DNA from: an uncultured Flavobacteriaceae bacterium
GTDB taxonomy: Bacteria > Bacteroidota > Bacteroidia > Flavobacteriales > Flavobacteriaceae
Reading direction: 5' to 3'
Assembly: GCA_905479475.1 (NCBI GenBank)
Contig: CAJQMT010000002.1
Location: forward strand, 1 to 64,000
DNA length: 64,000 nucleotides
This document shows positions 4,189-26,831 of the stretch, piece by piece (the stretch's first letter is position 1; each line of letters starts with the position of its first letter). The notes beneath the pieces are model-generated. The model was not told where the DNA came from, made no database searches, and worked only from the letters and a program-made list of their open reading frames with translations. The position numbers and the translations under genes were made by a program.

Positions 4189-4566
4189 CTATTCCGAAAA
4201 ACCTATATACACATTTCCTTCTTTAATTTGAACGGGATAAACGGCAATGGATTCGAGTTCTCCATTTAGGTTTTCACCATTCTCCAAAGAAAATGTTTTT
4301 TTATGCAGCGGACAAGCTACCTTGGGTGTACCACAATCATCGCCTATCATTCCTCGCGACAAAACCATTTCCATTTTGTGTGGACATAAATTTTGACAGG
4401 CATACCATTTCTTTTCTCTTGTGAAGTTGAAAACGGCAATTTGTTTGTCTTTGTATTTTACACAAGCCCCTCCGTTTTCTGGAAAATTCTCTACAGGAGC
4501 TGCTTTGAACCAAACTTTTACCTCTTCCTCATTTGTTGTAAAATACTTTTCTAATACTGCTGACAT
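4189..4566 (-). CDS. nirD: Nitrite reductase (NAD(P)H) small subunit, Rieske-type
   Basis: 125 aa; CPH...CPLHKKTF Rieske-like motifs; downstream of nirB. Confidence 0.88.
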   Translation of the reverse strand: MSAVLEKYFTTNEEEVKVWFKAAPVENFPENGGACVKYKDKQIAVFNFTREKKWYACQNLCPHKMEMVLSRGMIGDDCGTPKVACPLHKKTFSLENGENLNGELESIAVYPVQIKEGNVYIGFSE

Positions 4567-4694
4567 GTTTTTTATTTTTTTGTTCTATTCAGAGGAACGC
4601 TCAAAAACGAGTCCTAAATTATCAAAGAACCCGCCTTTGATGACCGTCCCTCCTTCATAGAAATCAAACTATAATTATTTCTTTTTCATTATTC

Positions 4695-7208
4695 TTACGA
4701 TTCCCACAACTCAGGCATTTTCTGATCTCTGAGGGGAACAAAATTTAAATTGGCGTCAATTTCATCAGAATTTACGAAATGACTGTACTTATTTTGAATT
4801 TCTATATTTTCAATCGCCTCTTTCCACTCACATTTGTAAGTATTCACCAAGCCTTGCATTTCTTTGTCCAAATCTTCGCAAATTCCTAAAGAATCGTTTA
4901 CAACGAGATCCTTGAGGTATTCAATGCCACCTTCTAATTTGTCCAACCATGCAGCTGTTCTTTGCAAAGGCAACGCTGTTTTTATATAGTACATTAAAAA
5001 GCGATCCACATACTTGACAACAGTTTCGTTGTCAATTTTTTCTGCCAACAATTCCGCATGCCTTGGATTGGCACCTCCATTTCCAGCAACATATAAATTC
5101 CAACCTCCTTCTACCGCGATCATCCCAAAATCTTTGCAACGTGCTTCTGCGCATTCGCGAATACATCCAGAAACCCCACCTTTGATTTTGTGCGGCGATC
5201 GAATTCCTTTGTATCGATTTTCAACTTCTATCGCAAAACTGACGCTTTCGTCCATTCCGTAACGACACCATGTAGAACCTACACAACTTTTTACCGTTCG
5301 CAAGGATTTTCCATAAGCGTGGCCGCTTTCGAAACCTTCGTCAATCAATTCTTTCCAAATAGCTGGCAATTGATCCAATCTTGCTCCAAACAAATCGATG
5401 CGCTGTCCTCCTGTTATTTTTGTATACAGGTCGTACTTTGAAGCAATCTCTCCAATTACAATCAATTGCTTTGGGGTAATTTCTCCTCCAGCAACACGGG
5501 GTACTACCGAGTAGGTTCCGTTTCTTTGGATGTTTGCTAAAAAGCGATCGTTGGAATCTTGAATGGCTTCTTGTTTGTTCGCTGTTTCGTTGTAGATGCT
5601 TGCAAACAATGAGGCCATTGCCGGTTTGCAAATTTCGCATCCATGCCCATTTCCGTAATTATCCAAGAGTTCGTCGTAAGAACGGATGTTTTTCATGGTA
5701 ATGATATCAAACAATTCTTGACGCGAATATTCAAAATGCTCACAAATGGTTTCTTTCACCACTTTTCCTGCCGCTTTGAGTGTTTCGTTCAATAGGTCGG
5801 TTACCATGGGTTTACAGCCTCCACATCCTGTGGTCACTTTGGTTTCTGCAGCCAATCCTTTGAGTGTATCCACCCCTTCTTCTACCTTACAGCAAATGGC
5901 TCCTTTGGTAACCGATTCACAGGAACAAACCACTGCGGCATCTGGCAAGTCCAACACCGAACCAAAACTGGCTTCTCCTCCTCCTCTGGCCCCTAAAATC
6001 AAATCTTCTGGATTCTCTGGAATGGCCAATCCATTCAAATAGATCTGATGCAGCATATTGTAATCACTTGCATCTCCAACCAAAATACCTCCTAAAAGAG
6101 ATTTTCCGTCTTTGGAAACGACGATTTTTTTGTAGATACCTTGAAATTTGTTTTCATAGACAATTCCTTCTCCTTCTTTTTGCTCGTTCAAGGCGTCTCC
6201 AAAACTCGCCACATCGATTCCACTTAATTTCAACTTGGTAGACATGTCTATTGACGTTGGCATCGCAGCTTCTTGACCCATAATTTGATCAACCGCCACT
6301 CCGGCCATGTCGTATCCTGGTGCTACCAAACCATAAATCATTTGGTTTAACAGAGCACATTCTCCAATGGCATAAATATGTTCGTCTGAGGTTTTCATGT
6401 CGTTGGATACGACAATTCCTCCTCTTGTTCCTACTTCCAATCCACAGGTTTTTGCCAATTCATCTCTCGGACGAATTCCGGCTGAAACCAATAGCATATC
6501 GACATCCAACACATCTCCGTTTCCGAAATCCATTCCGGTAATTGCGGTGTCTCCTAAAATTTGTTGGGTTCCTTTGTTTAGTAAAATCTCAATCCCTAAT
6601 TCTTCTAGCTTGCCTTGCAAGACGTTACTAGCATCTGTATCCAATTGCCTAGGCATCAAACGCGGAGCAAACTCTACAACAGCAGCTTCTAGGTCCATGT
6701 CTAAAATGGCCTTTCCTGCTTCCAAACCTAAGAGTCCTCCTCCAAGAATGGCGGCTTTCTTTTTGCCTCCATCTTGTTTTAATGTTTCGGCATAAGCCAT
6801 GGTCGCGTCCAAATCTTCAATGGTTCGGTATACAAAAATTCCTTCTTTTTCAATTTTAGGGATGGGTGGCACAAAGGCTGAAGAACCCGTTGCCAAAACC
6901 AAGTAGTCGTACGAATACACTGCCTCACTAATGGTTGTGATCGTTTTGTTATCTCTATGAATGTCTGTAACTCTTTCGTTGGTGATCAGTTCTATATTGT
7001 TCTCTTCATACCAAGATCTCGGTGCCATACTCAATCGTTCGGCATCTTGATTTGCAAAATACTCACTCAAATGCACACGATCGTAGGCAGGTCTGGGCTC
7101 TTCCCCAAAGACTACCAACTTGAATGCTGCAGAATTTTCTTTTCCCACAAACTTCTCGCAAAATTTGTAGCCGACCATTCCGTTTCCGATAACTAAAATC
7201 CTTTTCAT
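4695..7208 (-). CDS. nirB: Nitrite reductase (NAD(P)H) large subunit
   Basis: 837 aa; FAD/NAD GxGxxG motifs, BFD-type [2Fe-2S] Cys motifs, siroheme/[4Fe-4S] motif CVGSTWC...CIRECAEARC. Confidence 0.95.
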   Translation of the reverse strand: MKRILVIGNGMVGYKFCEKFVGKENSAAFKLVVFGEEPRPAYDRVHLSEYFANQDAERLSMAPRSWYEENNIELITNERVTDIHRDNKTITTISEAVYSYDYLVLATGSSAFVPPIPKIEKEGIFVYRTIEDLDATMAYAETLKQDGGKKKAAILGGGLLGLEAGKAILDMDLEAAVVEFAPRLMPRQLDTDASNVLQGKLEELGIEILLNKGTQQILGDTAITGMDFGNGDVLDVDMLLVSAGIRPRDELAKTCGLEVGTRGGIVVSNDMKTSDEHIYAIGECALLNQMIYGLVAPGYDMAGVAVDQIMGQEAAMPTSIDMSTKLKLSGIDVASFGDALNEQKEGEGIVYENKFQGIYKKIVVSKDGKSLLGGILVGDASDYNMLHQIYLNGLAIPENPEDLILGARGGGEASFGSVLDLPDAAVVCSCESVTKGAICCKVEEGVDTLKGLAAETKVTTGCGGCKPMVTDLLNETLKAAGKVVKETICEHFEYSRQELFDIITMKNIRSYDELLDNYGNGHGCEICKPAMASLFASIYNETANKQEAIQDSNDRFLANIQRNGTYSVVPRVAGGEITPKQLIVIGEIASKYDLYTKITGGQRIDLFGARLDQLPAIWKELIDEGFESGHAYGKSLRTVKSCVGSTWCRYGMDESVSFAIEVENRYKGIRSPHKIKGGVSGCIRECAEARCKDFGMIAVEGGWNLYVAGNGGANPRHAELLAEKIDNETVVKYVDRFLMYYIKTALPLQRTAAWLDKLEGGIEYLKDLVVNDSLGICEDLDKEMQGLVNTYKCEWKEAIENIEIQNKYSHFVNSDEIDANLNFVPLRDQKMPELWES

Positions 7209-8361: not shown

Positions 8362-9747
8362 ATGCGATTGAATACTTCCTTGGCCATGATTGCCAGCCTT
8401 ACTCTTTTTATTGCCTGCTCAGATGACAGCACGCAAAGTTCTGACAACAACTCCTTTCCAGTTCCAGAAGGATATACCCTGGTCTGGTCTGACGAGTTCA
8501 ACGAAAATGAGATTGACTCCAATAAATGGAGTTACGAATTGGGAGATGGAACGGACTATGGTTTGAAACCAGGTTGGGGAAACAACGAAAAACAGTTGTA
8601 CACAGATTCTAGTGAAAATTCTTTTATCACTCAAGATGCTACAACATCTGCCTTGGCAATCACTGCTCTAAAAGACGGAGATGGATTTACTTCTGCAAAA
8701 GTAACCACACAAAATACCTTTACCACCCGATTTGGTCGTGTGAGCGTGCGCGCCAAAATTCCAAAAGGACAAGGTATGTGGCCTGCTATCTGGATGCTCG
8801 GTGCCAACAAAACTGACATCGACTGGCCTGGTTGCGGAGAAATTGACATCATGGAAATTCTGGGTCATGAAACAGACAAATTGCTCACGACTCTTCATTA
8901 TACAGGAGAAAACAACAAATACGAAACCATCGAAAACACGCATGTTTTAAGTACCGGAGATTTCAGCGAAAGCTACCACGAATACACCTTGGATTGGACA
9001 CCAGAAAAATTAAGTTTTTCTTTGGACAACAACTTTTTATACGAGGTTCCTATTGAAAGCGACATGAAGGAATACCTTCGCGATTTTTACCTCATTTTAA
9101 ATGTGGCTGTTGGTGGAAATTTACCAGGAGAGGTAGATGAAACGACTTCTTTTCCGCAAGCGATGTTGGTGGATTATGTGCGTGTCTACTCAAAAGACGA
9201 CCTTGACATTCCAGATGCCCCACCTTTGGATCTTGAAGAAGAAACGGTAGGACAGGTAATTGATGAAAGTTTGGCAAGCAATGCTATCCAAAGTGGTTTT
9301 ACAAGCTTTGGAGATTTAAAAGCGGCTAGCTGGGGGCCTGGTGCTCCTTTTATCTCGAGTTCCGAAACTGCCATCGAGGGTGAGCAAAGCCTGTCTTTTT
9401 CGTATCCTGGAGGAGAATGGGGTGGTAGTTTTATAGAACTCGAAACTCCAAAGAGCGTCCTCAACTACAATTCTCTTGTGTTTTCGTTGCACAAACCGAC
9501 AACATTGGTAGATGCCGAAATAAAATTAGAAAACCCTGACAACAAGGGTGCTGCGGTATTTTTGATAGATTATACACCCACAGACGTAAGCAATGGGTTT
9601 GTCGAATACAACATTCCTTTGTCCGACTTTACAGGTTTGGATTTGGAGAACCTGAGCATTCCATTCTCTATTTGGAACCCAAAAGACAGCGATGAAAATT
9701 ATTTCGAAGGGGAAATCCTTATTGACAATCTTTATTTTTCAAACTAG
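8362..9747 (+). CDS. GH16 family glycoside hydrolase (laminarinase-like) lipoprotein
   Basis: Lipobox-like LFIACS, catalytic GEIDIME, WPAIWMLG; extra ~180-aa C-terminal beta-sandwich-like domain. Confidence 0.88.
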   Translation: MRLNTSLAMIASLTLFIACSDDSTQSSDNNSFPVPEGYTLVWSDEFNENEIDSNKWSYELGDGTDYGLKPGWGNNEKQLYTDSSENSFITQDATTSALAITALKDGDGFTSAKVTTQNTFTTRFGRVSVRAKIPKGQGMWPAIWMLGANKTDIDWPGCGEIDIMEILGHETDKLLTTLHYTGENNKYETIENTHVLSTGDFSESYHEYTLDWTPEKLSFSLDNNFLYEVPIESDMKEYLRDFYLILNVAVGGNLPGEVDETTSFPQAMLVDYVRVYSKDDLDIPDAPPLDLEEETVGQVIDESLASNAIQSGFTSFGDLKAASWGPGAPFISSSETAIEGEQSLSFSYPGGEWGGSFIELETPKSVLNYNSLVFSLHKPTTLVDAEIKLENPDNKGAAVFLIDYTPTDVSNGFVEYNIPLSDFTGLDLENLSIPFSIWNPKDSDENYFEGEILIDNLYFSN

Positions 9748-11026: not shown

Positions 11027-12400
11027 ATGAAATCAACATTTGTAAAAGTAACAGCATTGGCTACCTTACTCCTCACCATATCTTGTGGAGGGAAAGACAG
11101 CAAGAAAAAAGAAGAAACCAAAGCAACACCAGAAGTAAGTGCCTCTTTGGAAATTGAAAAACCACAATTGACCTTTGGTTTTATCAAATTGACCGATATG
11201 GCACCTTTGGCTATTGCCAAAGAAAAAGGATTTTTTGAAGAAGAGGGTTTGTTTGTCTCAGTGGAAGCCCAGTCCAACTGGAAAAACATTTTAGACAGAG
11301 TTATTGACGGTCAATTGGACGGTTCTCACATGCTAGCGGGACAGCCTATTGCGGCAGGAGCTGGCTATGGTCGTCAAGCAGAACTCGTTACCCCTTTTTC
11401 TATGGACTTGAACGGAAATGGAATTACCGTATCCAACGATGTTTGGTCTAAAATGAAACCAAACATTCCAAAAGATGAAAATGGAAAACCAATACACCCT
11501 ATTAGTGCAGAATCTTTAAAGCCGGTTATTTCAGACTACAAAAACAACGGAAAAGCCTTCAAAATGGGAATGGTATTTCCAGTATCTACACACAATTATG
11601 AAATTCGTTACTGGTTGGCAGCTGCTGGAATCCACCCAGGAATGTATTCTGCAGAAAATATCCAAGGACAAATCGACGCAGAAGTACTACTATCTGTAAC
11701 ACCACCGCCACAAATGCCCGCTACTTTAGAAGCAGGAACTATTTATGGATACTGTGTAGGAGAACCATGGAACCAACAAGCCGTATTCAAAGGAATTGGA
11801 GTTCCAGTAACAACAAACTACGACATCTGGAAGAACAACCCAGAGAAAGTATTTGTAATGACTAAAAAATTTGTAGAGCAGTACCCAAATACAGCCGTTG
11901 CTGTAACCAAAGCATTGATCAGAGCCGGAAAATGGTTGGATACTCCTGGAAACAGAGAAGAAGCAGTGAAAATATTATCAATGTCACAATACGTAGGAGC
12001 TGACGAAGTGGTATTGGCCAACTCAATGACAGGTACTTTTGAATTCGAAAAAGGAGACAAAAGATCGATGCCAGACTTCAACGTATTCTACCGTTACAAT
12101 GCAACCTACCCTTTCTATTCAGATGCAGTTTGGTTCTTGACTCAGATGAGAAGATGGGGACAAATTACAACAGAAAAGCCAGCAGCATGGTATGCAGAAA
12201 AAGCAAAAGAAATCTACCGTCCTGATATCTGGGAAAAAGCAGCAAAAATCTTAGCAGCAGAAGGAAAAATTCCTGCTACGGACATTCCGGAAACAGACGG
12301 ATACAAGCCAGCAACCACAGATTTTATTGACGGGAAAAACTACGATGCAAAAGATCCTGTTGGATACATCAACAGTTTCAAAATCGGAAACAAAGACTAA
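11027..12400 (+). CDS. nrtA: Nitrate ABC transporter substrate-binding protein (CmpA/NrtA family)
   Basis: Lipobox (LLTISCGG), NrtA-type fold signatures ([38 protein letters not shown]). Confidence 0.92.
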
Positions 12401-12450
12401 AAACGCTCCACAAAAATATGCCATCGAGCATCTCAATTAAAATTTGAGAG

Positions 12451-12539
12451 ATATCGAGAAACCTGTTTCCATCTTAAAACACTGTTTCTCGATATTCTTT
12501 TCTCCTTCAATCTAGGTTGAAGGAGAAAATTTCTCGATA
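12451..12539 (+). other. Intercistronic RNA stem-loops between nrtA and nrtB
   Basis: 12-bp perfect stem 12451-12462/12484-12495; 13-bp perfect stem 12498-12510/12517-12529; third complementary copy TTTCTCGATA at 12530-12539. Confidence 0.65.
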
Positions 12540-12576
12540 AGACAGATTCATAAAAGAACTCAGCAAAACAAACAAA

Positions 12577-13677
12577 ATGAAAGATTCTATCATCAAAGGA
12601 TTCCGATTTATCGGACTTGGTTTTTTTGAACCACTCGTAAGACTAATTGCCGGCGAGGACTCGAGAAAAAACAGTACAGAAGTTTTAAAGAAAATAATCG
12701 CTCCAATCGCTTCTATTCTATTATTTATTGGAATTTGGTACAGCGGATCCAAATCGCTTTTCAATACAGAGGCCAACTACAAAATAGAAAAAGTACGCAA
12801 AGAACAAGGTGATGAAGAAGCCGCTAAAATGAAAGCCTGTATTGAATCTGGAGATGTGAGCTGTCAACCCAATACACTGCCTTCTCCTTCTCAAGTTTGG
12901 GCGTCTTACAAGCTGCTTTTGAAAGATCACAAAATCATTAGTGCGGACAAAGATGCTTTCAAGCAAAAAACAGCTGCCATGAATGAGAAGAGAGTCGCGC
13001 AAGGAAAAAATCCGATTGTATATACCGGAAGACCTTCTTTTGTAGACCAGATAAAAACAAGTATCAAAACGGTATTCGCAGGATTTTTATTGGCGCTGCT
13101 TATTGCCACTCCAATCGGTATTATTATTGGGCTGAGTGAAACCTTGAGAACTTCTTTCAACTGGTTGATTCAAATTTTAAAACCTGTGTCACCCGTAGTT
13201 TGGTTGTTGTTGGTTTTTATGATCGTCAAAACATTGACAAAAGATTCTAACGGAGATACCTCTTTTATCATCTCGTTTATCAGTGTAGGACTTTGTTCTA
13301 TGTGGGCAACTTTGGTAAATACAGCCATGGGAGTTTCTTCGGTAGACAAAGATTACATCAATGTCGCAAAAGTATTGAAACTCGGTTCGCTTCAAAAAAT
13401 ATTCAAAGTAATCCTTCCAGCCTCTTTGCCTCTTATTTTTACGGGATTGAGAATTACCCTATCGGTAGCATGGATGGTATTGATTGCCATTGAACTCTTG
13501 GCACAAAGTCCAGGATTGGGCTCATTTGTATGGGAAGAATTCCAAAACGGAGCCAACGATTCCAACTCTAAGATAATTGTTGCCATGTTTGTGATTGGTT
13601 TTATTGGATTCTTACTGGACAGAATTATGCTGACTATCCAAAAATTTATCTCATTTGATAAAAACGAAGGCATCTAA
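12577..13677 (+). CDS. nrtB: Nitrate ABC transporter permease
   Basis: Multi-TM BPD-type permease with the EAA-like loop region; between nrtA and two ATPases. Confidence 0.9.
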   Translation: MKDSIIKGFRFIGLGFFEPLVRLIAGEDSRKNSTEVLKKIIAPIASILLFIGIWYSGSKSLFNTEANYKIEKVRKEQGDEEAAKMKACIESGDVSCQPNTLPSPSQVWASYKLLLKDHKIISADKDAFKQKTAAMNEKRVAQGKNPIVYTGRPSFVDQIKTSIKTVFAGFLLALLIATPIGIIIGLSETLRTSFNWLIQILKPVSPVVWLLLVFMIVKTLTKDSNGDTSFIISFISVGLCSMWATLVNTAMGVSSVDKDYINVAKVLKLGSLQKIFKVILPASLPLIFTGLRITLSVAWMVLIAIELLAQSPGLGSFVWEEFQNGANDSNSKIIVAMFVIGFIGFLLDRIMLTIQKFISFDKNEGI

Positions 13678-13685
13678 CAAACTAC

Positions 13686-13727
13686 TTTGTGCTGTGAACA
13701 GCAGTCAAACATTGTTCACAGCACAAA
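13686..13727 (+). other. Intercistronic hairpin between nrtB and nrtC
   Basis: 15-bp perfect stem TTTGTGCTGTGAACA / TGTTCACAGCACAAA with a 12-nt loop, no U-tract after it. Confidence 0.65.
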
Positions 13728-13786
13728 AAAACAAGAACAAACGATTGAATCGCCTCACATAGATAGGCTCTTAAAGAATAAGTAAA

Positions 13787-14644
13787 ATGGCATATTTAGA
13801 ATTGAACAACGTAACAAAAACCTATGGCACTGGTGAGAACACCACCAAGGTTTTGGACAATATCAACCTTCATATTGAAGAAGGAGAGTTTGTTGCCATC
13901 GTAGGATTTACAGGTAGTGGAAAAACAACCTTGGTAAATTTGATCAACGGTCTCGAAAAACCGACCAGCGGTGAGGTTTTATTCAAAGGAAAACCCGTAG
14001 AAGATACCAGCCATGAACGAGGTGTTATCTTTCAGAATTACTCCTTACTTCCGTGGTTGACAGTCTATCAAAATGTAGAAATGGCAGTAAAAGAAGCCTT
14101 TCCAAAAAAACCGAAAAAATTCATTGACCAACGTATCAAAGAATACGTGGAAATGGTAAGTCTTTCACATGCCATCCACAAAAGACCCAAAGAACTATCA
14201 GGAGGTATGCGACAACGCGTATCTGTTGCCCGAGCCTTGTCTATGGATCCTGAAATGATCATCATGGACGAACCTTTGGGGGCTTTAGATGCACTGACAC
14301 GCGGAAATCTTCAAGACGAAATTTTAAATATTTGGAACAAAAACAAACGCACCGCACTCCTCATTACAAATGATGTGGACGAAGGGATTTACATGGCTGA
14401 TCGAATCATTCCATTACGCCCGGGACCAAAAGCAACTTTGGGGCCTGAATTTAAAATTGACATTGAACGACCTCGTGACAAAACAGCATTGAACGACAAC
14501 GCTTCCTTTAAGAAAACGAGAAATGAAATCATCGAGTATTTGATGGAGATCGGAAACGAACGCTCTTCAAATTCAGAAATACAGTACGAACTACCTGACA
14601 TCCAACCGAAAGATTTGCGATGGGAATTCAAAGCTTCTAAATAA
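13787..14644 (+). CDS. nrtC: Nitrate ABC transporter ATP-binding protein
   Basis: Walker [25 protein letters not shown], Walker B. Confidence 0.88.
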
Positions 14645-14651
14645 TACGATC

Positions 14652-15455
14652 ATGAAAACAAGCATACTTCAAGAAAAATTTGCGCCAGCCGAAACGATGT
14701 TGGACTTACAAAAATTAAAAAAAGTATACCCTACTCCAAAAGGGGATTACGTCGTATTGGAAGACTTGAACCTCCAAGTGAAAAAAGAAGAATTCATCAC
14801 CATTATTGGACATTCTGGTTGTGGAAAAACAACCATGCTTTCCATGATTGCTGGATTGAATGAAATTTCTGGAGGAAAAATCTCGGTACTAGGATCTTCG
14901 ATCAAAGGCCCTGGACCCGACAGAGGTGTTATTTTCCAAGCACCCAGTTTGATGCCCTGGATGACCGCTTTTGAAAATGTCATGCTCGGTGTGAAAAAAG
15001 TATTTCCACACGGAACCAAAAAAGAAAGAGAAGACATCTGTAAATACTACTTGAGTAAAGTAGGATTGGAGGGTTCTTTTCACAAAAGAGCTTCTGAACT
15101 TTCCCAAGGAATGCAACAACGTGTCGGAATTGCCAGAGCGTTTGCCATCAAACCCAAAGTACTTCTTTTAGACGAACCTTTTGGAATGTTAGATTCTTTG
15201 ACACGGGGTGAATTGCAAGATGTTCTGATAGAAATCTGGAACAAAGAAAAAATTACCGCAGTTATGATTACACATGATGTAGACGAAGCGATATTTCTTT
15301 CCGATAGAGTGGTGATGATGACCAGCGGACCAAAGGCAAAAATTGGAGATATTCTTCCCATTGGATTTGAACGACCTCGTTCGAGAAAAGCCGTACTCAC
15401 ACATGACGATTACTACAAGTACAGAAAACATTTGATCGATTTCCTAGAACATTAA
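14652..15455 (+). CDS. nrtD: Nitrate ABC transporter ATP-binding protein
   Basis: Walker [25 protein letters not shown], Walker B; 7 bp after nrtC. Confidence 0.88.
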
Positions 15456-15592: not shown

Positions 15593-16777
15593 ATGAAACT
15601 CAAAAATTTAATCTTTACAGTGGCAGTACTTGCTTCGACAAGCATGTTTGCCCAATTCTCATTAAGTGGTGAATTTAGACCTCGTACAGAATGGTTCGGT
15701 CACGGACAAAAAGCAACAGCCTTAGAGGGAACGAAGGGATATCTTTCAACAAGCGTAAGAGCAGCCTTGAAAGGAACCTACAAATCAGAAGGATACACCT
15801 TATTTACAAGCTTTCAAGAAGTGTTTAAATTTGGAGATCGCGCACAAATTTCTCCTGCTGGAAACGGAAACTTCCGTGTGCAAGAAGCTTGGGCAGACAT
15901 CAAATTGAACGACGCACTTAGCTTGAAATTTGGTCGCCAACCTCTTTCTTACGATGACCAACGAATTTTAGGAGGTCTTGGATGGGCTCAGCAAGCAAGA
16001 ACCCACGATGCAGGAGTCTTCAAATACAAAAAAGGAGGCTACAATTTAGACTTAGGTTTTGCATTGAACACACCTACCTCTGCAATCTACGACCAAGCTG
16101 CCGCATTCTCATACAGAGAAATGGCTTTTGTTCGTGCGAACAAAAAGTACAAAAACTTAAACTTGAGCGCTTTGATCTTGTCAAATACTTACCAGAACGG
16201 AAGCGAAGACAAATCAAGTCTTTTGACAGCAGGTCTTCATGCAGACTTAAAGCTTAACAAATTGACACTTACAGCAAATGCATATTTACAAGAAGGAGAC
16301 CGATTGAATGATGTAGCCGTAGAAGGTGCTTATTTGGCAAGCCTTTTGGCAAAATACAAAGCTACAGGAAAAACAACTTTCAAAGCAGGTTTCGAAACAA
16401 TTTCTGGGAAAACAGACGATTCTGCAGCTTTCTTCCCTTTGTATGGAACCAACCATGCTTTCAACGGTTTGATGGATAGATTTTATGTAGGAAACCACGG
16501 AAATGCTGGAGGGCTGAACGATCTACAATTGGGAGTTTCAACAAAAATCTCTGGTTTGGCAGTAAGCTTGACAGGGCATTACTTTACAGAAGTTGAAGAT
16601 CTTGATGGACTTGGAAGTGACCTAGGGTCAGAATTGGATTTGGTAGTTGCCAAAAAGTTCAAAGATTTCAAATTGGTAGGAGGATACTCTCAATTCTTTG
16701 AACCATCTGAAGTTGTTGGTAAAGACACACAAAACTGGGCTTGGTTAATGCTCATCATTTCTCCTAAATTCTTGTAA
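15593..16777 (+). CDS. Alginate-export-type outer membrane beta-barrel porin
   Basis: Signal peptide ending SMFAQ; FSLSGEFRPRTEWFGHG...QEAWADIKLNDALSLKFGRQPLSYDDQRILG typical of Alginate_exp porins. Confidence 0.8.
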   Translation: MKLKNLIFTVAVLASTSMFAQFSLSGEFRPRTEWFGHGQKATALEGTKGYLSTSVRAALKGTYKSEGYTLFTSFQEVFKFGDRAQISPAGNGNFRVQEAWADIKLNDALSLKFGRQPLSYDDQRILGGLGWAQQARTHDAGVFKYKKGGYNLDLGFALNTPTSAIYDQAAAFSYREMAFVRANKKYKNLNLSALILSNTYQNGSEDKSSLLTAGLHADLKLNKLTLTANAYLQEGDRLNDVAVEGAYLASLLAKYKATGKTTFKAGFETISGKTDDSAAFFPLYGTNHAFNGLMDRFYVGNHGNAGGLNDLQLGVSTKISGLAVSLTGHYFTEVEDLDGLGSDLGSELDLVVAKKFKDFKLVGGYSQFFEPSEVVGKDTQNWAWLMLIISPKFL

Positions 16778-16999: not shown

Positions 17000-17488
17000 A
17001 TGTTGACATTTTTAAAAAAACTAATCAAAAAACCCAAAGAAGAAAAAAGCCCCATTGACGAACAAACCATTGTACTTGTGCAAGGGTCTTTTGAAAAAGT
17101 AAAGCCCATTGCTGCCACCGCTGCAGAAATTTTTTACACAAAACTATTTGAATTAGACCCAAAATTAAAGCCTATGTTTCCTACAGAAAAAGAGGGTGCC
17201 ATGGCCGAGCAAGGCAACAAATTGATGACCATGCTCTCAAGCGCGGTTGCTGGACTAACGGCTCTAGACAAGTTGATACCAATACTCCAAGATTTAGGAA
17301 AAAGACACGTGCAGTATGGAGTAGAAAAATCACATTATGACACCGTAGGTGCAGCACTACTTGACACACTTCAAGCGGGTCTAGGAGAAGGTTTTACACC
17401 AAGTATAAAACAAGCCTGGACTGATGTATACACCGTAATGGCAGGCGTGATGATCGAAGCCTCTTATGGAAAATCTGCAGATGCCTAA
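17000..17488 (+). CDS. Single-domain globin
   Basis: 162 aa; LVQGSFEKVKP...FYTKLFELDPKLKPMFP...LGKRHVQYGV with distal/proximal His candidates. Confidence 0.85.
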   Translation: MLTFLKKLIKKPKEEKSPIDEQTIVLVQGSFEKVKPIAATAAEIFYTKLFELDPKLKPMFPTEKEGAMAEQGNKLMTMLSSAVAGLTALDKLIPILQDLGKRHVQYGVEKSHYDTVGAALLDTLQAGLGEGFTPSIKQAWTDVYTVMAGVMIEASYGKSADA

Positions 17489-17758
17489 ACCATGTAATTT
17501 TTCACGAAACAATTGAAAATCAATAGAAAAGAAACAACAAATTGCAAAAAAAAAATTTTATTAAAAAATGTTTAAAACAAGTCGCTCATAAAAAAACAAA
17601 AGAATTTTGCAAAAAAAAATGAGATAACATTTATCTTTGTTGTTGAAAACAACAAATTTAAAGTATCGAAATGCAGTCTTTGTTTCATAGTAAGCTTTAG
17701 CACTATTTTTAAACAAGTTAAGAATCTTGTAAATAAATAACACTAAAAAACACTTCTC

Positions 17759-18565
17759 ATGAAAAATCTAACAACCCTAACAACTCCATTTCTTACCTTA
17801 CTTTTGTTTGCATGTGGTGGAGTTCCTGAAAAAAAAGAAACAGCTGCTGTTGAAAAAATGGAATTTGCCGTTGCTGAAGTCCTTGAAATGGTCGCAAAAG
17901 AAAACGACATCACACGAACGCTCTACACCAAAGCCATTGTGGGAGGTGGAAAAAAACAAGGAATGAAATTTGACGAAGACTGGCAAAAAGAAGAAGTAGA
18001 AGCAGGACCACTTCCGGCTTTATTTTTAAGAGGAATTGCCAATGACATTCGCAAAAGCGAAACGCCTCTCGGTCTTTATTTAGGATCTGATTTCCCAATC
18101 AACAAAGCCAATAAATTGGAAGGAAAACAAGCAGATCTGTTTAAAAAGATAAAAGAAGACAGAAAACCTCAATTCTTTTACGATGAAAACCAAGAAGTAC
18201 ATACGGCTATGTTTGCCGATGTTGCTGGAGCTGGAGCCTGTGTTTCGTGCCATAACGATCACGAACAAACTACTAAAACGGATTGGAAACTTGGAGATGT
18301 TATGGGTGCTACCACTTGGCAATACCCAGCAGACTCTTTAAGTTACGAAGCTACTTTGGGAGTCTTAAAAGCTTACAGAAACGGAACCAAGGCTGTTTAT
18401 GAAGACTATCTTGCAGAAATATCAAAGTTTGAAAAGAGTGAAAAACCTGAAATTGGTGATAAATGGCCTTCTGCTGGAGGATTGTACTTGCCAAGTCCAG
18501 AGGTCTTTTTAGACAGTGTCAGAGAACTAGCTTCTTATGACACCATGAAGGTATTGCTCAACTAA
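17759..18565 (+). CDS. c-type heme lipoprotein, DUF3365/Tll0287-like
   Basis: Lipobox LLFACGG; single CVSCH heme motif; DUF3365-like sequence (GLYLGSDFPINKANKLEGKQADLFKKI). Confidence 0.8.
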   Translation: MKNLTTLTTPFLTLLLFACGGVPEKKETAAVEKMEFAVAEVLEMVAKENDITRTLYTKAIVGGGKKQGMKFDEDWQKEEVEAGPLPALFLRGIANDIRKSETPLGLYLGSDFPINKANKLEGKQADLFKKIKEDRKPQFFYDENQEVHTAMFADVAGAGACVSCHNDHEQTTKTDWKLGDVMGATTWQYPADSLSYEATLGVLKAYRNGTKAVYEDYLAEISKFEKSEKPEIGDKWPSAGGLYLPSPEVFLDSVRELASYDTMKVLLN

Positions 18566-18577
18566 GAAAATACGGAA

Positions 18578-19057
18578 TTGAAAAATAATAGTTACATACC
18601 CCTAATAGGCCTACTGCTTTTCTTCGCCTATCTTTTGCAAGAAGTCCTGCAATTAAAATGGTCTTTTTTAGAAGATCTACAAAGATTGGAGCCCTACAAA
18701 AGATGGTCGGGATTAGCGCTAGGTCTCTTTATTTTGTTTCAATGGTTGCTTACCTTTAGCAGGATCATTCCTGCTTTTAGAAAAAAAGCACTGACCATCA
18801 ACAAATTGCACAAATGGATCGGTATTTTTAGTCCCCTGTTGTTGTATGCTCACAGCACACAATTTGGTTTTGGGTACTTAGCATTGTTCTCCTATTTGTT
18901 TCTCGCAAATATGCTGCTAGGAACCGTTAATTTGGATGTATTGAAATCAACCAAGTCATGGATTTTCAAAGGGTGGATGATCGCTCATGTATCACTTTCT
19001 ATGTGTATTACTTTTTTACTTTTTTTTCATATCAACATCGTTTTTTACTACAAATAA
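18578..19057 (+). CDS. Integral membrane protein, predicted diheme b-type (ferric-reductase-like)
   Basis: 159 aa, about four TM helices; two H-x13-H pairs (HKWIGIFSPLLLYAH and HVSLSMCITFLLFFH). Confidence 0.6.
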   Translation: MKNNSYIPLIGLLLFFAYLLQEVLQLKWSFLEDLQRLEPYKRWSGLALGLFILFQWLLTFSRIIPAFRKKALTINKLHKWIGIFSPLLLYAHSTQFGFGYLALFSYLFLANMLLGTVNLDVLKSTKSWIFKGWMIAHVSLSMCITFLLFFHINIVFYYK

Positions 19058-19062
19058 CCCCT

Positions 19063-20091
19063 ATGAAATTAACCGTAGTCAACGTCAAAAAAGAAACTGA
19101 TCAAGCGGTCACAATCTCTTTTAAAAACAATCGTATTTTTAACAAAATACACTACAAGCCTGGACAATTTTTAACTCTAAAAATTCCAATCAATGGACGC
19201 GTAGAAAGTCGAGCCTACTCTTTCAGCAGCGATCCTTACACAGAAAAATCGCTGAAAATAACGGTGAAAAAAGTAGCGAATGGGTTGATTTCAAACTATC
19301 TAAATACTGAGGTAAAAGCTGGTCAAAAAATGACCATTGACAAACCAATGGGAAGTTTCTACATTGAACCTGATGCCGAGCAAAAACAACAATATGTTTT
19401 ATTTGCCGGAGGAAGCGGAATAACACCAGTTTTCTCTATCCTAAAAACGGTTTTGGCCAAAGAACCGCATTCCAAAGTAGTATTGATCTATGCCAATCTG
19501 AATATTGAAAATATCATTTTCCTTGAAGAATTGCAGGAACTGAGTAAAACCTATTCAGATCGATTGTCTGTAGAATACATTCTCAGTGAAAATACAAATC
19601 CACTTTTTCATTCTGGTTTTGTCACAAAAGAAATCATCGAAAAAATATTTGACAAATACGATTTGGAATTTACAGATCACAAATACATGATGTGCGGCCC
19701 CTCGGGATTTATGAGAACGGTCAAAGAAATTTTGAAAGCCAAATCCATAGCGCCCTCAAAAGTTCAAACGGAAGTTTTCAAAGCGGCGAAAATTAAGATT
19801 GATTCAAAAAACTTGCTTAGCAAGGTGACTATCAAACACAAAGGCACCACTCACAACCTGGAAGTTCCTGGTAATAGAACCATTCTCGAACAAGCGATGA
19901 AAGATAACATTGCCCTGCCCTACTCATGTAGATCTGGCATGTGCAGTACGTGCAAAGCACAGTGCGTATCTGGCGAAGTCCAATTGACAAAAGGTCACCT
20001 GCTCCCTGACAACGAAGTTGAAAACGGAGCCATATTAACCTGTGTCAGCTACCCAAGTAGCGAAGAAGTAACCATAGAAATTCCGAAATAA
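19063..20091 (+). CDS. FAD/NAD(P)-binding oxidoreductase with C-terminal [2Fe-2S] ferredoxin
   Basis: RAYSFSS flavin motif, GGSGITPVFSI, MMCGPSGF, C-terminal CRSGMCSTCKAQC. Track ORF starts at 18958 but ATG 19063 follows the upstream stop. Confidence 0.88.
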   Translation: MKLTVVNVKKETDQAVTISFKNNRIFNKIHYKPGQFLTLKIPINGRVESRAYSFSSDPYTEKSLKITVKKVANGLISNYLNTEVKAGQKMTIDKPMGSFYIEPDAEQKQQYVLFAGGSGITPVFSILKTVLAKEPHSKVVLIYANLNIENIIFLEELQELSKTYSDRLSVEYILSENTNPLFHSGFVTKEIIEKIFDKYDLEFTDHKYMMCGPSGFMRTVKEILKAKSIAPSKVQTEVFKAAKIKIDSKNLLSKVTIKHKGTTHNLEVPGNRTILEQAMKDNIALPYSCRSGMCSTCKAQCVSGEVQLTKGHLLPDNEVENGAILTCVSYPSSEEVTIEIPK

Positions 20092-20094
20092 GGT

Positions 20095-20805
20095 ATGAAG
20101 TTCGAAATAAATCCATTGCGAAAAAGACAAGTTCTCGGAATGCTCATAGGAACCATCTTAGGCGTCTTTTTATTCCTATTCCTCTCGAGTGAGGCTAATG
20201 AAGAATACAAAAGCCTGGGTCCGATGAACACCGGTCATGAAGATTTTTCTTGTAGCAGCTGTCATTCAGATGCGGAAGGAAGTTTATGGGCACAAACACA
20301 ATCCAACCTACAGTACAGTATCGGATTGAGAGCGAATTCTGTTGCATACGGAACCCTAGATGTAGAAACTAAGAAATGCCTTGCCTGTCATGAAAGAGAC
20401 AACGACAGACATCCTACACATCGATTTTTAGAACCCAAATACAAAGAAGCTGTTGAAAAAATAAATACCGCCAGTTGCATCACATGTCACTCAGAACACA
20501 ATGCAAAAAGACTTACCCTTTCGAAAGTCGACTATTGCATGCATTGTCATGAGGATTTAACAGTTAAAAATGATCCGATAGACATTTCACACGAAACCTT
20601 GATTGCAACAGAACAGTGGGACACTTGTCTTCAGTGCCATGACTTCCATGGAAATCACGAATACAAAACACCCTCCGTAATGAAAGACACCCTTTCTTAT
20701 GAAGCACTAGACATTTACTTTAATGGTGGAAAAGATCCTTACAGCACAAAGAAAAAATTTACTGCACTTTCGGAAAAAGAGTGGATTGAAAAATTTCTTA
20801 AATAA
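20095..20805 (+). CDS. Membrane-anchored pentaheme c-type cytochrome
   Basis: N-terminal TM anchor; five CxxCH motifs (CSSCH, CLACH, CITCH, CMHCH, CLQCH). Confidence 0.85.
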   Translation: MKFEINPLRKRQVLGMLIGTILGVFLFLFLSSEANEEYKSLGPMNTGHEDFSCSSCHSDAEGSLWAQTQSNLQYSIGLRANSVAYGTLDVETKKCLACHERDNDRHPTHRFLEPKYKEAVEKINTASCITCHSEHNAKRLTLSKVDYCMHCHEDLTVKNDPIDISHETLIATEQWDTCLQCHDFHGNHEYKTPSVMKDTLSYEALDIYFNGGKDPYSTKKKFTALSEKEWIEKFLK

Positions 20806-20998: not shown

Positions 20999-21658
20999 TT
21001 GGAAAAAGTAATCAAAATCATATTGGCTGATGATCATTTGCTAGTAAGAAATGGTATCAAATCTTTATTGCTCGAAGATGCTACATTGGATGTCATTGGA
21101 GAAGCTTCCAATGGAAAAGAAGCCCTAGAATTGGCAAAAGAAACGCAACCCGACCTTTTAATTATTGACGTGCGCATGCCCGTTATGGACGGTATTGAAG
21201 CCGCTGGTCATTTGAAGGATTATGCACCAAACACCAAATCCATTGTACTGTCGATGCACGACTCTGAAGAATACATCTTAAAGTCTATCAAAGCTGGAGC
21301 AAGTGGTTATTTATTAAAAGACACAGGAAAAGAAGAATTCCTAAAAGCCATAAAAACAGTCTTTAATGGAGGAAAATACTTCAGCGGAGACATCTCAAAT
21401 GTGATTGTTTCCAATTACCTACAAACCACTTCAACGACAAACCCCACTGTCAAGACACCCAAAAATACGCTTGGACTCACCAAAAAGGAAATCGAAATCT
21501 TATCGTTGATTTTATCTGGAATGACCAACACTGAAATATCAGACAAACTGGGTAAAAGCAAACGCACCATAGAAACACATCGTTTCAATTTGATGAAAAA
21601 AATGAACGTTAAAAACCTCATCGAATTATCTTCCAAAGCGAAAGAATTAGGATTTTAA
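20999..21658 (+). CDS. NarL/FixJ family response regulator
   Basis: DDH acidic pocket, IIDVRMPVMDG, LuxR-type HTH LTKKEIEILSLILSGMTNTEISDKLGKSKRTIETHRFNLMKK. Start appears to be TTG. Confidence 0.92.
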   Translation: MEKVIKIILADDHLLVRNGIKSLLLEDATLDVIGEASNGKEALELAKETQPDLLIIDVRMPVMDGIEAAGHLKDYAPNTKSIVLSMHDSEEYILKSIKAGASGYLLKDTGKEEFLKAIKTVFNGGKYFSGDISNVIVSNYLQTTSTTNPTVKTPKNTLGLTKKEIEILSLILSGMTNTEISDKLGKSKRTIETHRFNLMKKMNVKNLIELSSKAKELGF

Positions 21659-21861: not shown

Positions 21862-24800
21862 ATGTCAATCTTAAAATCCTATAAAACAACATGTTCTTAT
21901 TGCGGTGTGGGCTGTGGAATCATTGTAGACAAAAACCACAACGGTACGCTAAAAGTAAAAGGTGACCCAGATCATCCTACGAACAAAGGAATGCTTTGTT
22001 CTAAAGGAATGAACCTGCACTATGTGGCACAGGATACTTCTGACAGGATCCTACACCCACAGATGAAATGGAGTAAAAACCACCCCCTAAAAAAAGTATC
22101 TTGGGATACGGCTTTAGATAGAGCTGCAGCAGTTTTCAAAAGTATCATCAAAAAGCACGGACCAGATAGTGTTGGATTTTACGTCTCTGGACAATGTTTG
22201 ACTGAAGAATATTATTTGGTCAACAAACTTACCAAGGGATTTATTGGAACGAACAACGTCGACACAAATTCAAGATTGTGTATGAGTTCCGCAGTTGTAG
22301 GATATAAGAAAGCCCTCGGAGACGACAACGTTCCCATCGCTTATGAGGACATTGAACTCGCAGACACCTTCTTGATAACGGGTGCCAACCCAGCTTGGTG
22401 TCATCCCATACTCTTCAGACGTTTGGAAAAACACAAAGAGGACAATCCAAATACCAAAATTATCGTTGTGGATCCGCGAAAAACACAAACTTGTGCCATC
22501 GCTGATTTGCATTTACAAATCATCCCAGGAACAGATGTGGTGTTGCACAATGCCATTGCAAAAAGACTCATCGACAAAAAGAAGGTGGACGCGGATTTTA
22601 TCAAAAAGCACACCAACAATTTTGAAGCTTTGAAAAAACTGGTTTCTGAAACCTCTCTTAACAAAGCCGCTAAAATTTGTGGAATTTCGACAGCAGACAT
22701 CAAATTAGCAGCGCAATATATAGGAGATGCCAAAGGGTTTATCAGCATGTGGACCATGGGCATCAATCAGAGCGTCATTGGAGTAGACAAAAACACTTCT
22801 TTGCTCAACATATCCTTACTAACAGGACATATTGGAAAGCCCGGATCAGGACCTTTTTCATTGACCGGACAACCCAATGCCATGGGAGGCCGTGAAGTTG
22901 GTGGAATGGCAAATTTATTGGCCGCTCACAAAAACTTAGCAGACCCACAACACAGAAAAGAAGTCGCTGACTTTTGGGGAAGCAAACCCATTTCACCAAA
23001 CCCTGGATTGACCGCAACAGAAATGTTTGATGCCTTGGACAGCGGCAAATTAAAAGCAATTTGGATCATTTGCACGAATCCTGTGGTCAGCCTACCGGAT
23101 GCAAATAAGGTTGAAAAAGCCCTTAAAAAAGCGAATTTTGTAGTCGTACAAGACATTTCCGAAAATTCAGAAACCGTTGCCTTTGCAGATCTCGTATTGC
23201 CTGCTGCAGGATGGTTAGAAAAAGAAGGAACGATGACCAACTCCGAACGCAGAGTGAGTTACCTACCAAAAGGAATTGAACCTCCTGGAGAAGCTTTGCC
23301 AGATGCTGAAATTTTATGGAAGTTCGCCCAAAAAATGGACTTTTTAGGATTTAACTACAAACATGTGAGTGAAGTGTACGACGAACATTGTGCGCTCACT
23401 AAAGGTACCAAAATAGACGTTTCAGGCCTCTCTCATGAGCGATTGAAATCTGAAGGGAGTATGCAATGGCCTGTTCCTCATAAAAAACACAAAGGCACTA
23501 CAAGACTTTATACAGATTACCAATTTGACACACTGAATGGGAAAGCGGCTTTTAACATTCCTTCAAGTACCGAAAACCTATCCGAAAAAACTTCTTCGAA
23601 ATTTCCTTTGGTTTTAAACACCGGAAGAATTCGCGACCAATGGCACACACGCACCAAAACAGGAAAAGTGCAACGATTGCTGACGCATATCGAAGGTCCT
23701 TATGTGGAAATGAACGCAGCTGATGCCTTTCAGAGAAATTTAAAAGACGGAGACATTGCCGTCGTAAAAAACAACCGCGGAGAAACCAGAGTTCCCGTAG
23801 TAACCAACCATGATATCCGATCAGGCGTTGTCTTCATGCCGATGCACTTTGGAAAAGTTTCTAACAGCACACTGGGAAGAGCAAACAACCTTACCCATTC
23901 CTTGATTGACCCGATTTCGAAAGAACCCGACTTTAAATTTGCGGCAGTAGAAGTCAGCAAATACAAAAAGAAAAAACAAAAAATATGCGTGATTGGCGGC
24001 GGTGCAGCCGCCTATCGTTTTGTACAAACCTATCGAGAAAATAACAAAATAGACGATATTGAAGTATTTTCTTTGGAAGAAACGCCTTTTTACAATCGCG
24101 TTCTTCTGCCAGAATATGTAAACGATGAATTGACATGGGAGCAACTTCAAAAAATCAAAAAAGGAGAACTCGCCAAATTAAAAATCAAACTACACGCAAA
24201 CACTTCCATTACTTCCATAGACAAAGTAGCAAAATCGATTGTCGATAGCAATGAGGTCGAACACACCTACGATATTTTGATCATGGCCACTGGAAGTCGT
24301 GCCTTTGTGCCTTCTGACGCACAACTCGATTTGCCTGGAAGATTTACTATGCGGAACAAAGGGGATGCCGATGCCCTAAAAAATTATTTAGAGCAAACAG
24401 GATTGCCAAACAATGAGCAACATGTTGTGATTGTAGGAGGTGGCTTGCTAGGGCTCGAGCTTGCGGCCGCATTGAACAAACGAAAAGTAAACATCACTAT
24501 CATTCAAAGAGCGTCCCGATTGATGGAACGACAATTGGATTTGGTTGCCAGTCGTCTTCTCGCTCAAGACGTACAAGAAAGAGGCATTCAAATATATTTT
24601 GACAACGAGGTCAATACTGTGTTTGATGACACACAGATAAACAACCTGTCGATCAACTTGAAAACAGGAAAAACAATCAACGCCAATGCCATTGTATATG
24701 CCATTGGAACCATTCCAAACGTAGAACTTGCCAGAGAAGCAAAACTAACTGTTCAAAGAGGTGTCGTTGTCAATGAATACCTGCAAACAAGTACTCCTGA

Positions 24801-25395
24801 AATTTTTGCGATGGGAGAAATTGCAGAATTCAACAATTTCTTATTCGGAATTACTTCTGCGGCAGAGCAACAAGCAGATATTGCTGCAAAATTCATTTTA
24901 GGAAACCTCAACAACCACTACAAAGGGTCTGTACTGATGAATATTCTAAAATTTGAAGATTTGGATTTGTGTAGTATCGGGAATATTGAATTTCCTGAAA
25001 ACGACCCAAGCTACGAGGAAATACTACTTATGGACGTAAGCAAACGTTTTTACAAAAAATGCATCGTAAAAGACGACAAGCTTATTGGTGCATTGATGAT
25101 GGGAGACAAAAGTGAATTCGCAGAATTCAAAAGCTTGATTGAGGACAAAACAGAATTGTCTGAAAAAAGAGTAGAATTATTACGAGGCAGAAGCGACGCA
25201 AAACCAGTCATTGGAAAGCTCATTTGCTCTTGCAGTCAAGTAGGAGAAGGAAACCTAAAAGAGGCCATAAAAGGAGGTTGTTCTGAGTTTATAGATTTGT
25301 GCAAAACCACAGGAGCAGGATTGGGTTGTGGAAGCTGCAAACCAGAAGTCAGAGATATTTTAGTAAATGCGAAAAGCGAAACAGTAAACGGGTAA
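21862..25395 (+). CDS. nasA: Assimilatory nitrate reductase catalytic subunit fused to NirB-like FAD/NAD(P) reductase and BFD domain
   Basis: CSYCGVGCG N-terminal [4Fe-4S] motif and molybdopterin domains; from ~aa 710 KICVIGGGAAAYRF...VVIVGGGLLGLEL; C-terminal CSCSQVGEGNL...CGSCKPEV BFD motif. Confidence 0.92.
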   Translation: MSILKSYKTTCSYCGVGCGIIVDKNHNGTLKVKGDPDHPTNKGMLCSKGMNLHYVAQDTSDRILHPQMKWSKNHPLKKVSWDTALDRAAAVFKSIIKKHGPDSVGFYVSGQCLTEEYYLVNKLTKGFIGTNNVDTNSRLCMSSAVVGYKKALGDDNVPIAYEDIELADTFLITGANPAWCHPILFRRLEKHKEDNPNTKIIVVDPRKTQTCAIADLHLQIIPGTDVVLHNAIAKRLIDKKKVDADFIKKHTNNFEALKKLVSETSLNKAAKICGISTADIKLAAQYIGDAKGFISMWTMGINQSVIGVDKNTSLLNISLLTGHIGKPGSGPFSLTGQPNAMGGREVGGMANLLAAHKNLADPQHRKEVADFWGSKPISPNPGLTATEMFDALDSGKLKAIWIICTNPVVSLPDANKVEKALKKANFVVVQDISENSETVAFADLVLPAAGWLEKEGTMTNSERRVSYLPKGIEPPGEALPDAEILWKFAQKMDFLGFNYKHVSEVYDEHCALTKGTKIDVSGLSHERLKSEGSMQWPVPHKKHKGTTRLYTDYQFDTLNGKAAFNIPSSTENLSEKTSSKFPLVLNTGRIRDQWHTRTKTGKVQRLLTHIEGPYVEMNAADAFQRNLKDGDIAVVKNNRGETRVPVVTNHDIRSGVVFMPMHFGKVSNSTLGRANNLTHSLIDPISKEPDFKFAAVEVSKYKKKKQKICVIGGGAAAYRFVQTYRENNKIDDIEVFSLEETPFYNRVLLPEYVNDELTWEQLQKIKKGELAKLKIKLHANTSITSIDKVAKSIVDSNEVEHTYDILIMATGSRAFVPSDAQLDLPGRFTMRNKGDADALKNYLEQTGLPNNEQHVVIVGGGLLGLELAAALNKRKVNITIIQRASRLMERQLDLVASRLLAQDVQERGIQIYFDNEVNTVFDDTQINNLSINLKTGKTINANAIVYAIGTIPNVELAREAKLTVQRGVVVNEYLQTSTPEIFAMGEIAEFNNFLFGITSAAEQQADIAAKFILGNLNNHYKGSVLMNILKFEDLDLCSIGNIEFPENDPSYEEILLMDVSKRFYKKCIVKDDKLIGALMMGDKSEFAEFKSLIEDKTELSEKRVELLRGRSDAKPVIGKLICSCSQVGEGNLKEAIKGGCSEFIDLCKTTGAGLGCGSCKPEVRDILVNAKSETVNG

Positions 25396-25397
25396 AC

Positions 25398-26831
25398 ATG
25401 AGAAACAAAGATCTAAAACGTATTTTTATCAAAGGAGGAGTGTTGTCACCTGGAGAATTGAAACAAATCATTCGACTGGCTGAGACCTTGGGACTTAACG
25501 ATATTTTCTTTGGTTCAAGACAAGATATTATTTTGCCTTTTCAAGAGGCTGACAACGAAATTCTGGAGCAGTTTCCCGATTTAAAAATGGAAATTATTTC
25601 TGAAAGAAACTACCAAAACATTGTTTGTTCTTATGTTTCTGCCGACATCTTCAAAAATACACCTTGGCTGAATGGGGTAAAGTATTTGTACATTTTGGAA
25701 GATTTCAAACACACGCCAAAAATTAAAATCAACATTACGGATCCACAACAGCAGTTGGTCCCTGTTTTCAGTGGAAACTTGAATTTTATTGCCTCCGAGC
25801 ACGAAGATTATTGGTACTTGCATTTGAACCTTCCCCACTGGGAAACCCCAGAATATTATCCCGTATTGATTTTTAGCTATGACATTGCTAAGATTTCGAG
25901 AACCATTGAAGAAATCGGTTCCGATGCCGACGACGCACAAGAACTTTTTGACTTGATCAACGACCGCATCGAAACGAACAACCGTTCCATTGAAAAAAAA
26001 CTAGCCATTCCCTATGAGCCTTTTCCTTACTACGAAGGAATGAATAAAATGGGCATAAACAGGTATTGGCTTGGTTTGTACTGGAGAAACAACCGATACG
26101 ATCTCAATTTCTTAAAAGATTTTTCCGAATTCTGTTTGAACCACAAAGTAGGTAAAATTTGTATTACCCCCTGGAAATCCTTCATCGTAAAAGGAATTGG
26201 CCAAGAAGACAAATTGACCTTAGAAAAGTTTTTGGGAAAAAAAGGAATCAATGTAAGACACTCTTCCTTAGAGTTGAACTGGAACATTCCTGTGAATGAC
26301 AACGACGCCTTGAATTTGAAAGAATTTGTGGTAAAAACATTCGATCAAAACGACATCAGTACCTACGGTATGACTTTTGGAATCAGCTATCATGAAACTG
26401 AAAAAACTTATTTCACAACCGTTACGATTGAAAAAAACAAAACCCCGGACATTGTAAAAAATTTCCAAGTACGGCCCACATTTAATGTGCTCTACTCAAA
26501 AAACTTTGACCCCAACACCCAAGAATACATTGCCTATGCGCAGGATGTCGACAAAATTGAATTGCCTGGTTTGTTGATGGAATTGAGTCGAATGTACTTT
26601 GAACAATTAGGAGCCATTACTCCTTCTTCAAGTACAAAATCTGACGCTAACGACGCTCCGGAGTTGTCTGAAGTTTACCAATGTCAAAACTGTATGACTC
26701 TATACGACAGCACTTATGGTGACGAACAATCGGGAATCTTACCGAACACACCTTTTGAAAAATTACCAGACGATTATTGCTGTGGTGTCTGCGAAGGGGA
26801 AAAGAAATATTTTAAAAAAATCCTGATGTAA
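25398..26831 (+). CDS. Siroheme-reductase-like protein with C-terminal rubredoxin domain
   Basis: ATG 3 bp after the nasA stop; C-terminal CQNCMTLYDSTYGDEQSGILPNTPFEKLPDDYCCGVCEG is rubredoxin; N-terminal part resembles nitrite/sulfite reductase half-domains without the siroheme Cys motif. Confidence 0.75.
   Translation: MRNKDLKRIFIKGGVLSPGELKQIIRLAETLGLNDIFFGSRQDIILPFQEADNEILEQFPDLKMEIISERNYQNIVCSYVSADIFKNTPWLNGVKYLYILEDFKHTPKIKINITDPQQQLVPVFSGNLNFIASEHEDYWYLHLNLPHWETPEYYPVLIFSYDIAKISRTIEEIGSDADDAQELFDLINDRIETNNRSIEKKLAIPYEPFPYYEGMNKMGINRYWLGLYWRNNRYDLNFLKDFSEFCLNHKVGKICITPWKSFIVKGIGQEDKLTLEKFLGKKGINVRHSSLELNWNIPVNDNDALNLKEFVVKTFDQNDISTYGMTFGISYHETEKTYFTTVTIEKNKTPDIVKNFQVRPTFNVLYSKNFDPNTQEYIAYAQDVDKIELPGLLMELSRMYFEQLGAITPSSSTKSDANDAPELSEVYQCQNCMTLYDSTYGDEQSGILPNTPFEKLPDDYCCGVCEGEKKYFKKILM

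Follow-up and report, generated by a model that had tools for sequence, protein, structure and literature searches.

What could a bacterium that assimilates nitrate do with a set of five genes whose products appear to lead electrons from the cytosol to the periplasm? The question is raised by a stretch of 64,000 nucleotides from an uncultured Flavobacteriaceae bacterium (contig CAJQMT010000002.1, positions 1-64,000; hereafter the window), in which open reading frame calls and domain searches identified at 17000-20805 a block encoding a globin, a Tll0287/DUF3365 lipoprotein, a membrane protein of 159 amino acids (aa), a FAD/NAD/2Fe-2S reductase and a pentaheme cytochrome. Judged by sequence comparison, nitrate-using marine flavobacteria often carry this conserved block, which resembles an inside-to-outside electron wire and is most likely directed against toxic nitrogen oxides.

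The last four genes are tightly packed on the forward strand at 17759-18565 (lipoprotein), 18578-19057 (membrane protein), 19063-20091 (reductase) and 20095-20805 (cytochrome), with gaps of 12, 5 and 3 bp, just as a preliminary description of the locus had it, and motif counts and domain searches confirm the product types given there. Linkage of the four genes had been chosen beforehand as a test of the module. With each species represented by one genome, a scan yielded 80 named loci, almost all in Flavobacteriaceae (Flavicella, Wenyingzhuangia, Aquimarina, Maribacter, Zobellia, Algibacter, Tamlana and others), and the four genes follow each other in the same order at 80/80, with median gaps of 41.5, 8 and 9.5 bp. 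In a family sample of 301 genomes the membrane protein was found in 24 and the cytochrome in exactly those same 24, which span 20 genera. Such conservation across genera and loci, together with the exact co-occurrence, led us to reject chance or a local oddity as the explanation. A phylum-wide profile search returned, besides the window, one weak partial match, and the genomes it listed were mostly of the same family.

The module is also tied to nitrate genes. NrtA is present in 54/301 family genomes including all 24 module carriers (p 7e-21, kinship ignored), and among these 54 the lipoprotein profile matches exactly the 24 carriers. NrtA-D were located within the fetched stretch at 63-65 of the 80 loci. 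The module may occupy the Crp/NrtA interval, the interval between the porin and the response regulator-NasA pair or, on the other strand, the NasA/NrtD interval, and that it stays with the nitrate genes through these changes of position argues for a functional tie. The nitrate link of the preliminary description is thereby borne out, but it needs qualification in that the surrounding cluster is, by its gene content, assimilatory (NrtABCD, NasA, NirBD) and the module is optional. Its absence from 30/54 genomes with NrtA and NirB marks it as an accessory cassette. A tree built from the NrtA proteins of 34 genomes calls for at least three gains or losses of the module on well supported branches, and the best tree for eight. 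Inspection of 20 of the 30 module-free genomes revealed an otherwise similar nitrate cluster and no common replacement gene set. The module was rejected as the assimilatory nitrite reductase of the cell, since NirB accompanies NrtA in all 54 genomes. It is also unlikely to be a required electron supply of NasA, since this enzyme comes with flavin and 2Fe-2S domains and 30 genomes manage without the module.

The membrane protein, which begins with a TTG start codon, would be the transmembrane link of the proposed wire. As previously described, it contains two pairs of histidines in H-x13-H spacing, and exactly two (78/92 and 137/151), an outcome reached in 31/20,000 residue shuffles of the protein. 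Conservation of these histidines was the other test set in advance, and H78, H92, H137 and H151 proved invariant in sets of 24 and 43 homologues. Helices in the AlphaFold model (predicted local distance difference test score 87.9) fit five membrane spans, and the positive-inside rule is obeyed. The loop before H78 has a mean net charge of +4.9 and is accordingly cytosolic, which places the first histidine of each pair (H78, H137) close to the cytoplasmic side of the membrane and the second (H92, H151) close to the periplasmic side. This arrangement is predicted to be that of two stacked b hemes. The window protein scores 16.9 bits against Ferric_reduct (PF01794), below the cut-off of 28; the family is matched by 43/43 homologues at E<=1 (best 6.3e-6), and we predict that the protein belongs to the ferric-reductase-like transmembrane superfamily. 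In sequence searches neither the membrane protein nor the cytochrome nor the lipoprotein profile had a solved relative.

On the two sides of this protein lie a plausible donor and a plausible acceptor. The reductase combines FAD_binding_6, NAD_binding_1 and a C-terminal plant-type 2Fe-2S domain (Fer2) in a PaaE/Hcr-like layout expected in the cytosol. The cytochrome has an N-terminal membrane anchor and CxxCH motifs at 53, 95, 128, 148 and 178, all five of which are kept in 80/81 aligned rows. Six further histidines are invariant (48, 106, 135, 166, 185 and 188), so that each heme could be of the bis-His type, and the protein would accordingly seem to be a wire rather than an active site. A single protein of 571 aa in genome G231 unites the reductase with the pentaheme part through a membrane helix, so that both ends of the proposed chain are joined, with the flavin domain cytosolic and the c hemes periplasmic. 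This fusion adjoins the lipoprotein and membrane protein genes and lies apart from the nitrate cluster, without a globin, in the vicinity of a phosphonate-type binding protein and a cNMP-binding regulator. Genes for c-type cytochrome maturation accompany some loci. ResB and CcsA lie downstream of the block in Aquimarina-type loci and L069, and at L110, a locus which also contains HemA (glutamyl-tRNA reductase, heme synthesis), a CcmF-like gene is found between reductase and cytochrome. In the set formed by L063 (12251-15780), L070 and L069, which comprises Aquimarina-type loci and one Cytophagales locus, a small mono-heme lipoprotein of about 120 aa follows the pentaheme gene along with ResB and CcsA. 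The reductase is more divergent (44-46%) in the Aquimarina loci.

The periplasmic lipoprotein contains a single Tll0287/DUF3365 domain (PF11845, 34.6 bits against a cut-off of 24.1), which is matched by 32/32 homologues, and the best fold match of its model in the PDB is Tll0287 itself (5b82, E 0.013, probability 1.00). Its lipobox cysteine is at residue 19 and its one CxxCH, for one c heme, at residue 161, the latter kept in 80/81 aligned rows. According to a 2026 preprint, Tll0287/DUF3365 domains are heme-bearing Cache domains, termed sCache_heme; a stand-alone member with an axial cysteine bound nitric oxide (NO) weakly, and a signalling member without this cysteine retained it (k_off 6e-4 per second) (PMC12889525). 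The axial cysteine, a trait of the redox-type stand-alone subgroup and not of the whole family, is missing from the lipoprotein, since its conserved cysteines are limited to 19, 161 and 164. Standing alone and yet lacking the axial cysteine, the lipoprotein is by its residues of mixed character and may bind NO.

The globin (17000-17488, forward strand) is a single-domain protein of the flavohemoglobin type (PF00042, 3.8e-18) and resembles HGbI (3s1i, 5.7e-26), the Vitreoscilla hemoglobin VHb (1vhb, 9.5e-17) and the globin domain of Hmp. Tyr46, Gln71 and His103, checked for conservation, align with residues of solved bacterial globins at positions which we take to be B10, E7 and F8, respectively. 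It had been counted as part of the module by its position alone; it does belong there, on firmer ground, since among NrtA genomes a globin (E 1e-20) was found in 19/24 with the module and in 1/30 without it (p 4e-9, kinship ignored). Counted by position, 23/24 module genomes have it, and the gene is present at 75/80 loci. Full flavohemoglobins are nearly absent (2/54 NrtA genomes), and a substitution by such proteins where the module is missing was rejected on this ground. The distance to the lipoprotein gene is 270 bp in the window compared to a median of 24 bp at other loci, so that the globin may be separately transcribed here. No match to the Bacteroidota promoter consensus was found within the window. 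Variants of the globin gene include a longer form of about 295 aa on the opposite strand in the Aquimarina loci among L063, L070 and L069 and two tandem genes ahead of the lipoprotein gene in the Flavicella relatives L046, L047 and L048. Two module-free nitrate clusters, L131 (genome G215) and L141 (genome G182), retain globins that are 45-49% identical and are perhaps remnants or a separate NO defence.

We propose that the block specifies a split conduit of the NOX/MsrQ kind, by which electrons would cross the membrane. In the cytosol, the reductase would pass electrons from NAD(P)H by way of FAD to its 2Fe-2S cluster and from there to the 159-aa protein, whose two b hemes, stacked so as to span the inner membrane, would in turn reduce the membrane-anchored periplasmic pentaheme cytochrome. 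Invariant histidines, positive-inside topology and the fusion of reductase, anchor and pentaheme part lend strong support to this portion of the route, which the preliminary description had put forward. The pentaheme protein would then deliver to the sCache-heme lipoprotein, whose heme would be the likeliest site for binding and reducing a small nitrogen oxide (NO, perhaps nitrite or hydroxylamine), while the globin could form a cytosolic arm, an NO dioxygenase or denitrosylase reducible by the same reductase. On this reading the whole would be an accessory of nitrate assimilation, guarding against NO or nitrite formed as a by-product or met alongside nitrate use. The transmembrane conduit itself is very probable; that it also protects against nitrogen oxides is, in our estimation, an evenly balanced proposition. 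The boldest form of the proposal, an undescribed NAD(P)H-driven periplasmic nitrogen-oxide reductase in which the lipoprotein itself reduces NO (or nitrite or hydroxylamine) and the globin removes cytosolic NO so that both compartments are protected, we regard as unlikely. It would to our knowledge be the first enzymatic role of the Cache fold.

Several observations weigh against the conduit or its protective purpose. The fold search with the membrane protein gave no significant match in the PDB (a NOX5 domain, 5o0t, appeared at E 1.1). The five-heme protein has the appearance of a mere conductor, and a known terminal reductase is absent from the block. A globin is lacking at 5/80 loci and also in G231, and a subgroup of Aquimarina has it at some distance, so the conduit would not depend on it. 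NirK showed no association with the module (4/24 genomes with it, 4/30 without), and a link to denitrification through this enzyme was rejected. The sole stand-alone sCache_heme protein tested lost NO fast even when its axial cysteine was replaced (PMC12889525), and absence of this cysteine alone is therefore no proof of NO chemistry. It must also be noted that the sequences establish the components, their order, their joint inheritance, the invariant ligands, the topology and the fusion, and that the direction of the electrons, the final step and the purpose are deduced from these.

The same anatomy could in principle serve a periplasmic task unrelated to nitrogen oxides, be it an NAD(P)H redox valve, reduction of proteins or metals, or reduction of oxygen or peroxide, with shared conditions such as low oxygen or redox stress accounting for the nitrate linkage. 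A block without a nitrogen-oxide reductase, the core of G231 away from nitrate genes and the several acceptors of MsrQ-type proteins (PMC5676040, PMC11334425) would fit such a task. This reading is possible if doubtful, given NrtA in 24/24 family carriers, nitrate genes in several arrangements flanking most of the 80 loci and the strong tie to a flavohemoglobin-type globin. Alternatively, the reductase might serve the cytosol (globin and/or NasA) in the manner of Flp, proposed in Bradyrhizobium to feed both NasC and Bjgb (PMC4724949). The heme proteins would be a separate branch of redox or NO sensing that reports on the periplasm, as DUF3365 domains sense NO when fused to signalling modules (PMC12889525). 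However, the reductase remains with the heme proteins where the globin is absent and is fused to the pentaheme part in G231, NasA brings FAD and 2Fe-2S domains of its own, 30 genomes possess nitrate transporter and NirB without the block, and the block lacks a kinase or transducer domain; we therefore find this division of labour rather improbable. A true NOX function, the generation of superoxide, is suggested by the two H-x13-H pairs, which fall within the His-X12/14-His screen for bacterial NOX (PMC5676040), and by the superoxide that tested sCache_heme proteins produce with oxygen (PMC12889525). Here the FAD/NAD(P)H domain belongs to a protein of its own that has a 2Fe-2S domain in addition, and every locus (80/80) encodes a pentaheme cytochrome as dedicated acceptor, which argues for a protein acceptor and makes superoxide a highly improbable product.

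The preliminary description knew of no characterised system with this gene set and overlooked partial precedents (PMC4724949, PMC5676040, PMC12889525). For the complete five-gene set no published description was found in a literature search that covered few subscription journals. By analogy, the closest functional precedent is narK-bjgb-flp-nasC of Bradyrhizobium, in which the single-domain globin Bjgb and the flavoprotein Flp protect against NO made by NasC (PMC4724949). In both, a single-domain hemoglobin and an NAD(P)H flavoprotein are encoded with an assimilatory nitrate reductase and nitrate transport. The Bradyrhizobium unit differs in having no membrane heme b protein, pentaheme cytochrome or sCache_heme lipoprotein, and its Flp is proposed to feed NasC as well, whereas the present NasA has its own flavin domain. 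Mechanically, E. coli MsrPQ, a split relative of NOX in which Fre passes electrons to MsrQ and MsrQ to MsrP (PMC5676040), is closest. It shares a separate flavin reductase, a ferric-reductase-like transmembrane heme protein and a periplasmic partner, but the partner there is the molybdoenzyme MsrP, for which no gene was found in the conserved neighbourhood, and here a pentaheme cytochrome with a c-heme lipoprotein; the present reductase also has the extra 2Fe-2S domain. SpNOX, a bacterial NOX, and ferric reductases of PF01794 likewise have two histidine pairs on two helices and an NAD(P)H/FAD donor domain. NOX unites FAD/NADPH and heme domains in one chain, whereas separate genes encode them here at 80/80 loci, and five helices rather than six are predicted in addition to the dedicated cytochrome acceptor. 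The lipoprotein shares with stand-alone sCache_heme/Tll0287 proteins the Pfam domain, one CxxCH, the lack of a fused signalling module and 5b82 as best fold match, and differs in its lipidation, its missing conserved axial cysteine and its operon with an electron conduit. The globin agrees in sequence and heme-pocket residues with Vitreoscilla hemoglobin, Cgb, HGbI and the Hmp globin domain; it has no fused reductase and, unlike them, sits in a five-gene unit. The unit thus merges the ideas of both precedents and adds the pentaheme cytochrome and the Cache-heme lipoprotein.

Nitrate-using marine flavobacteria are abundant and their handling of NO and nitrite is little studied, and a conserved five-gene unit, repeatedly gained or lost and with invariant heme ligands, offers a concrete and testable system. 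In the block, the recently described Cache domain with heme is paired with a source of electrons, which may settle the role of the stand-alone members of that family. The block would also be a natural example of a NOX-like core that feeds a cytochrome rather than oxygen.

Around the block, the window encodes NirD and NirB of assimilatory nitrite reductase (4189-7208, reverse strand) and, all on the forward strand, the nitrate ABC transporter with NrtA, NrtB and two ATPases (11027-15455), an outer-membrane porin of the Alginate_exp family (15593-16777) and a NarL-type response regulator (20999-21658), the latter two identified by domain search. These are followed by the assimilatory nitrate reductase of 1177 aa, fused to NirB-like FAD and BFD 2Fe-2S domains (21862-25395), whose gene end is overlapped by that of a protein in which domain search found one nitrite/sulfite-reductase half-domain and a C-terminal rubredoxin (25389-26831). 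Upstream of the Crp gene, some Algibacter/Tamlana-type loci (L124, 1140-7547; also L132 and L139) have a gene set that might specify an oxidoreductase, respiratory for nitrate or of another kind, and that occurs with and without the module. It encodes a remote homologue of NasA (35%), two tetraheme cytochromes, a 4Fe-4S protein and, judged by eye, an NrfD-like membrane protein. In the window, the two Crp-type regulators that belong to the nitrate cluster flank a secreted glycan hydrolase, GH16-like by eye (8362-9747), and a further FAD/NAD reductase, broadly of the type found in the module and similar to the reductase part of flavohemoproteins, is encoded at 54208-54933.

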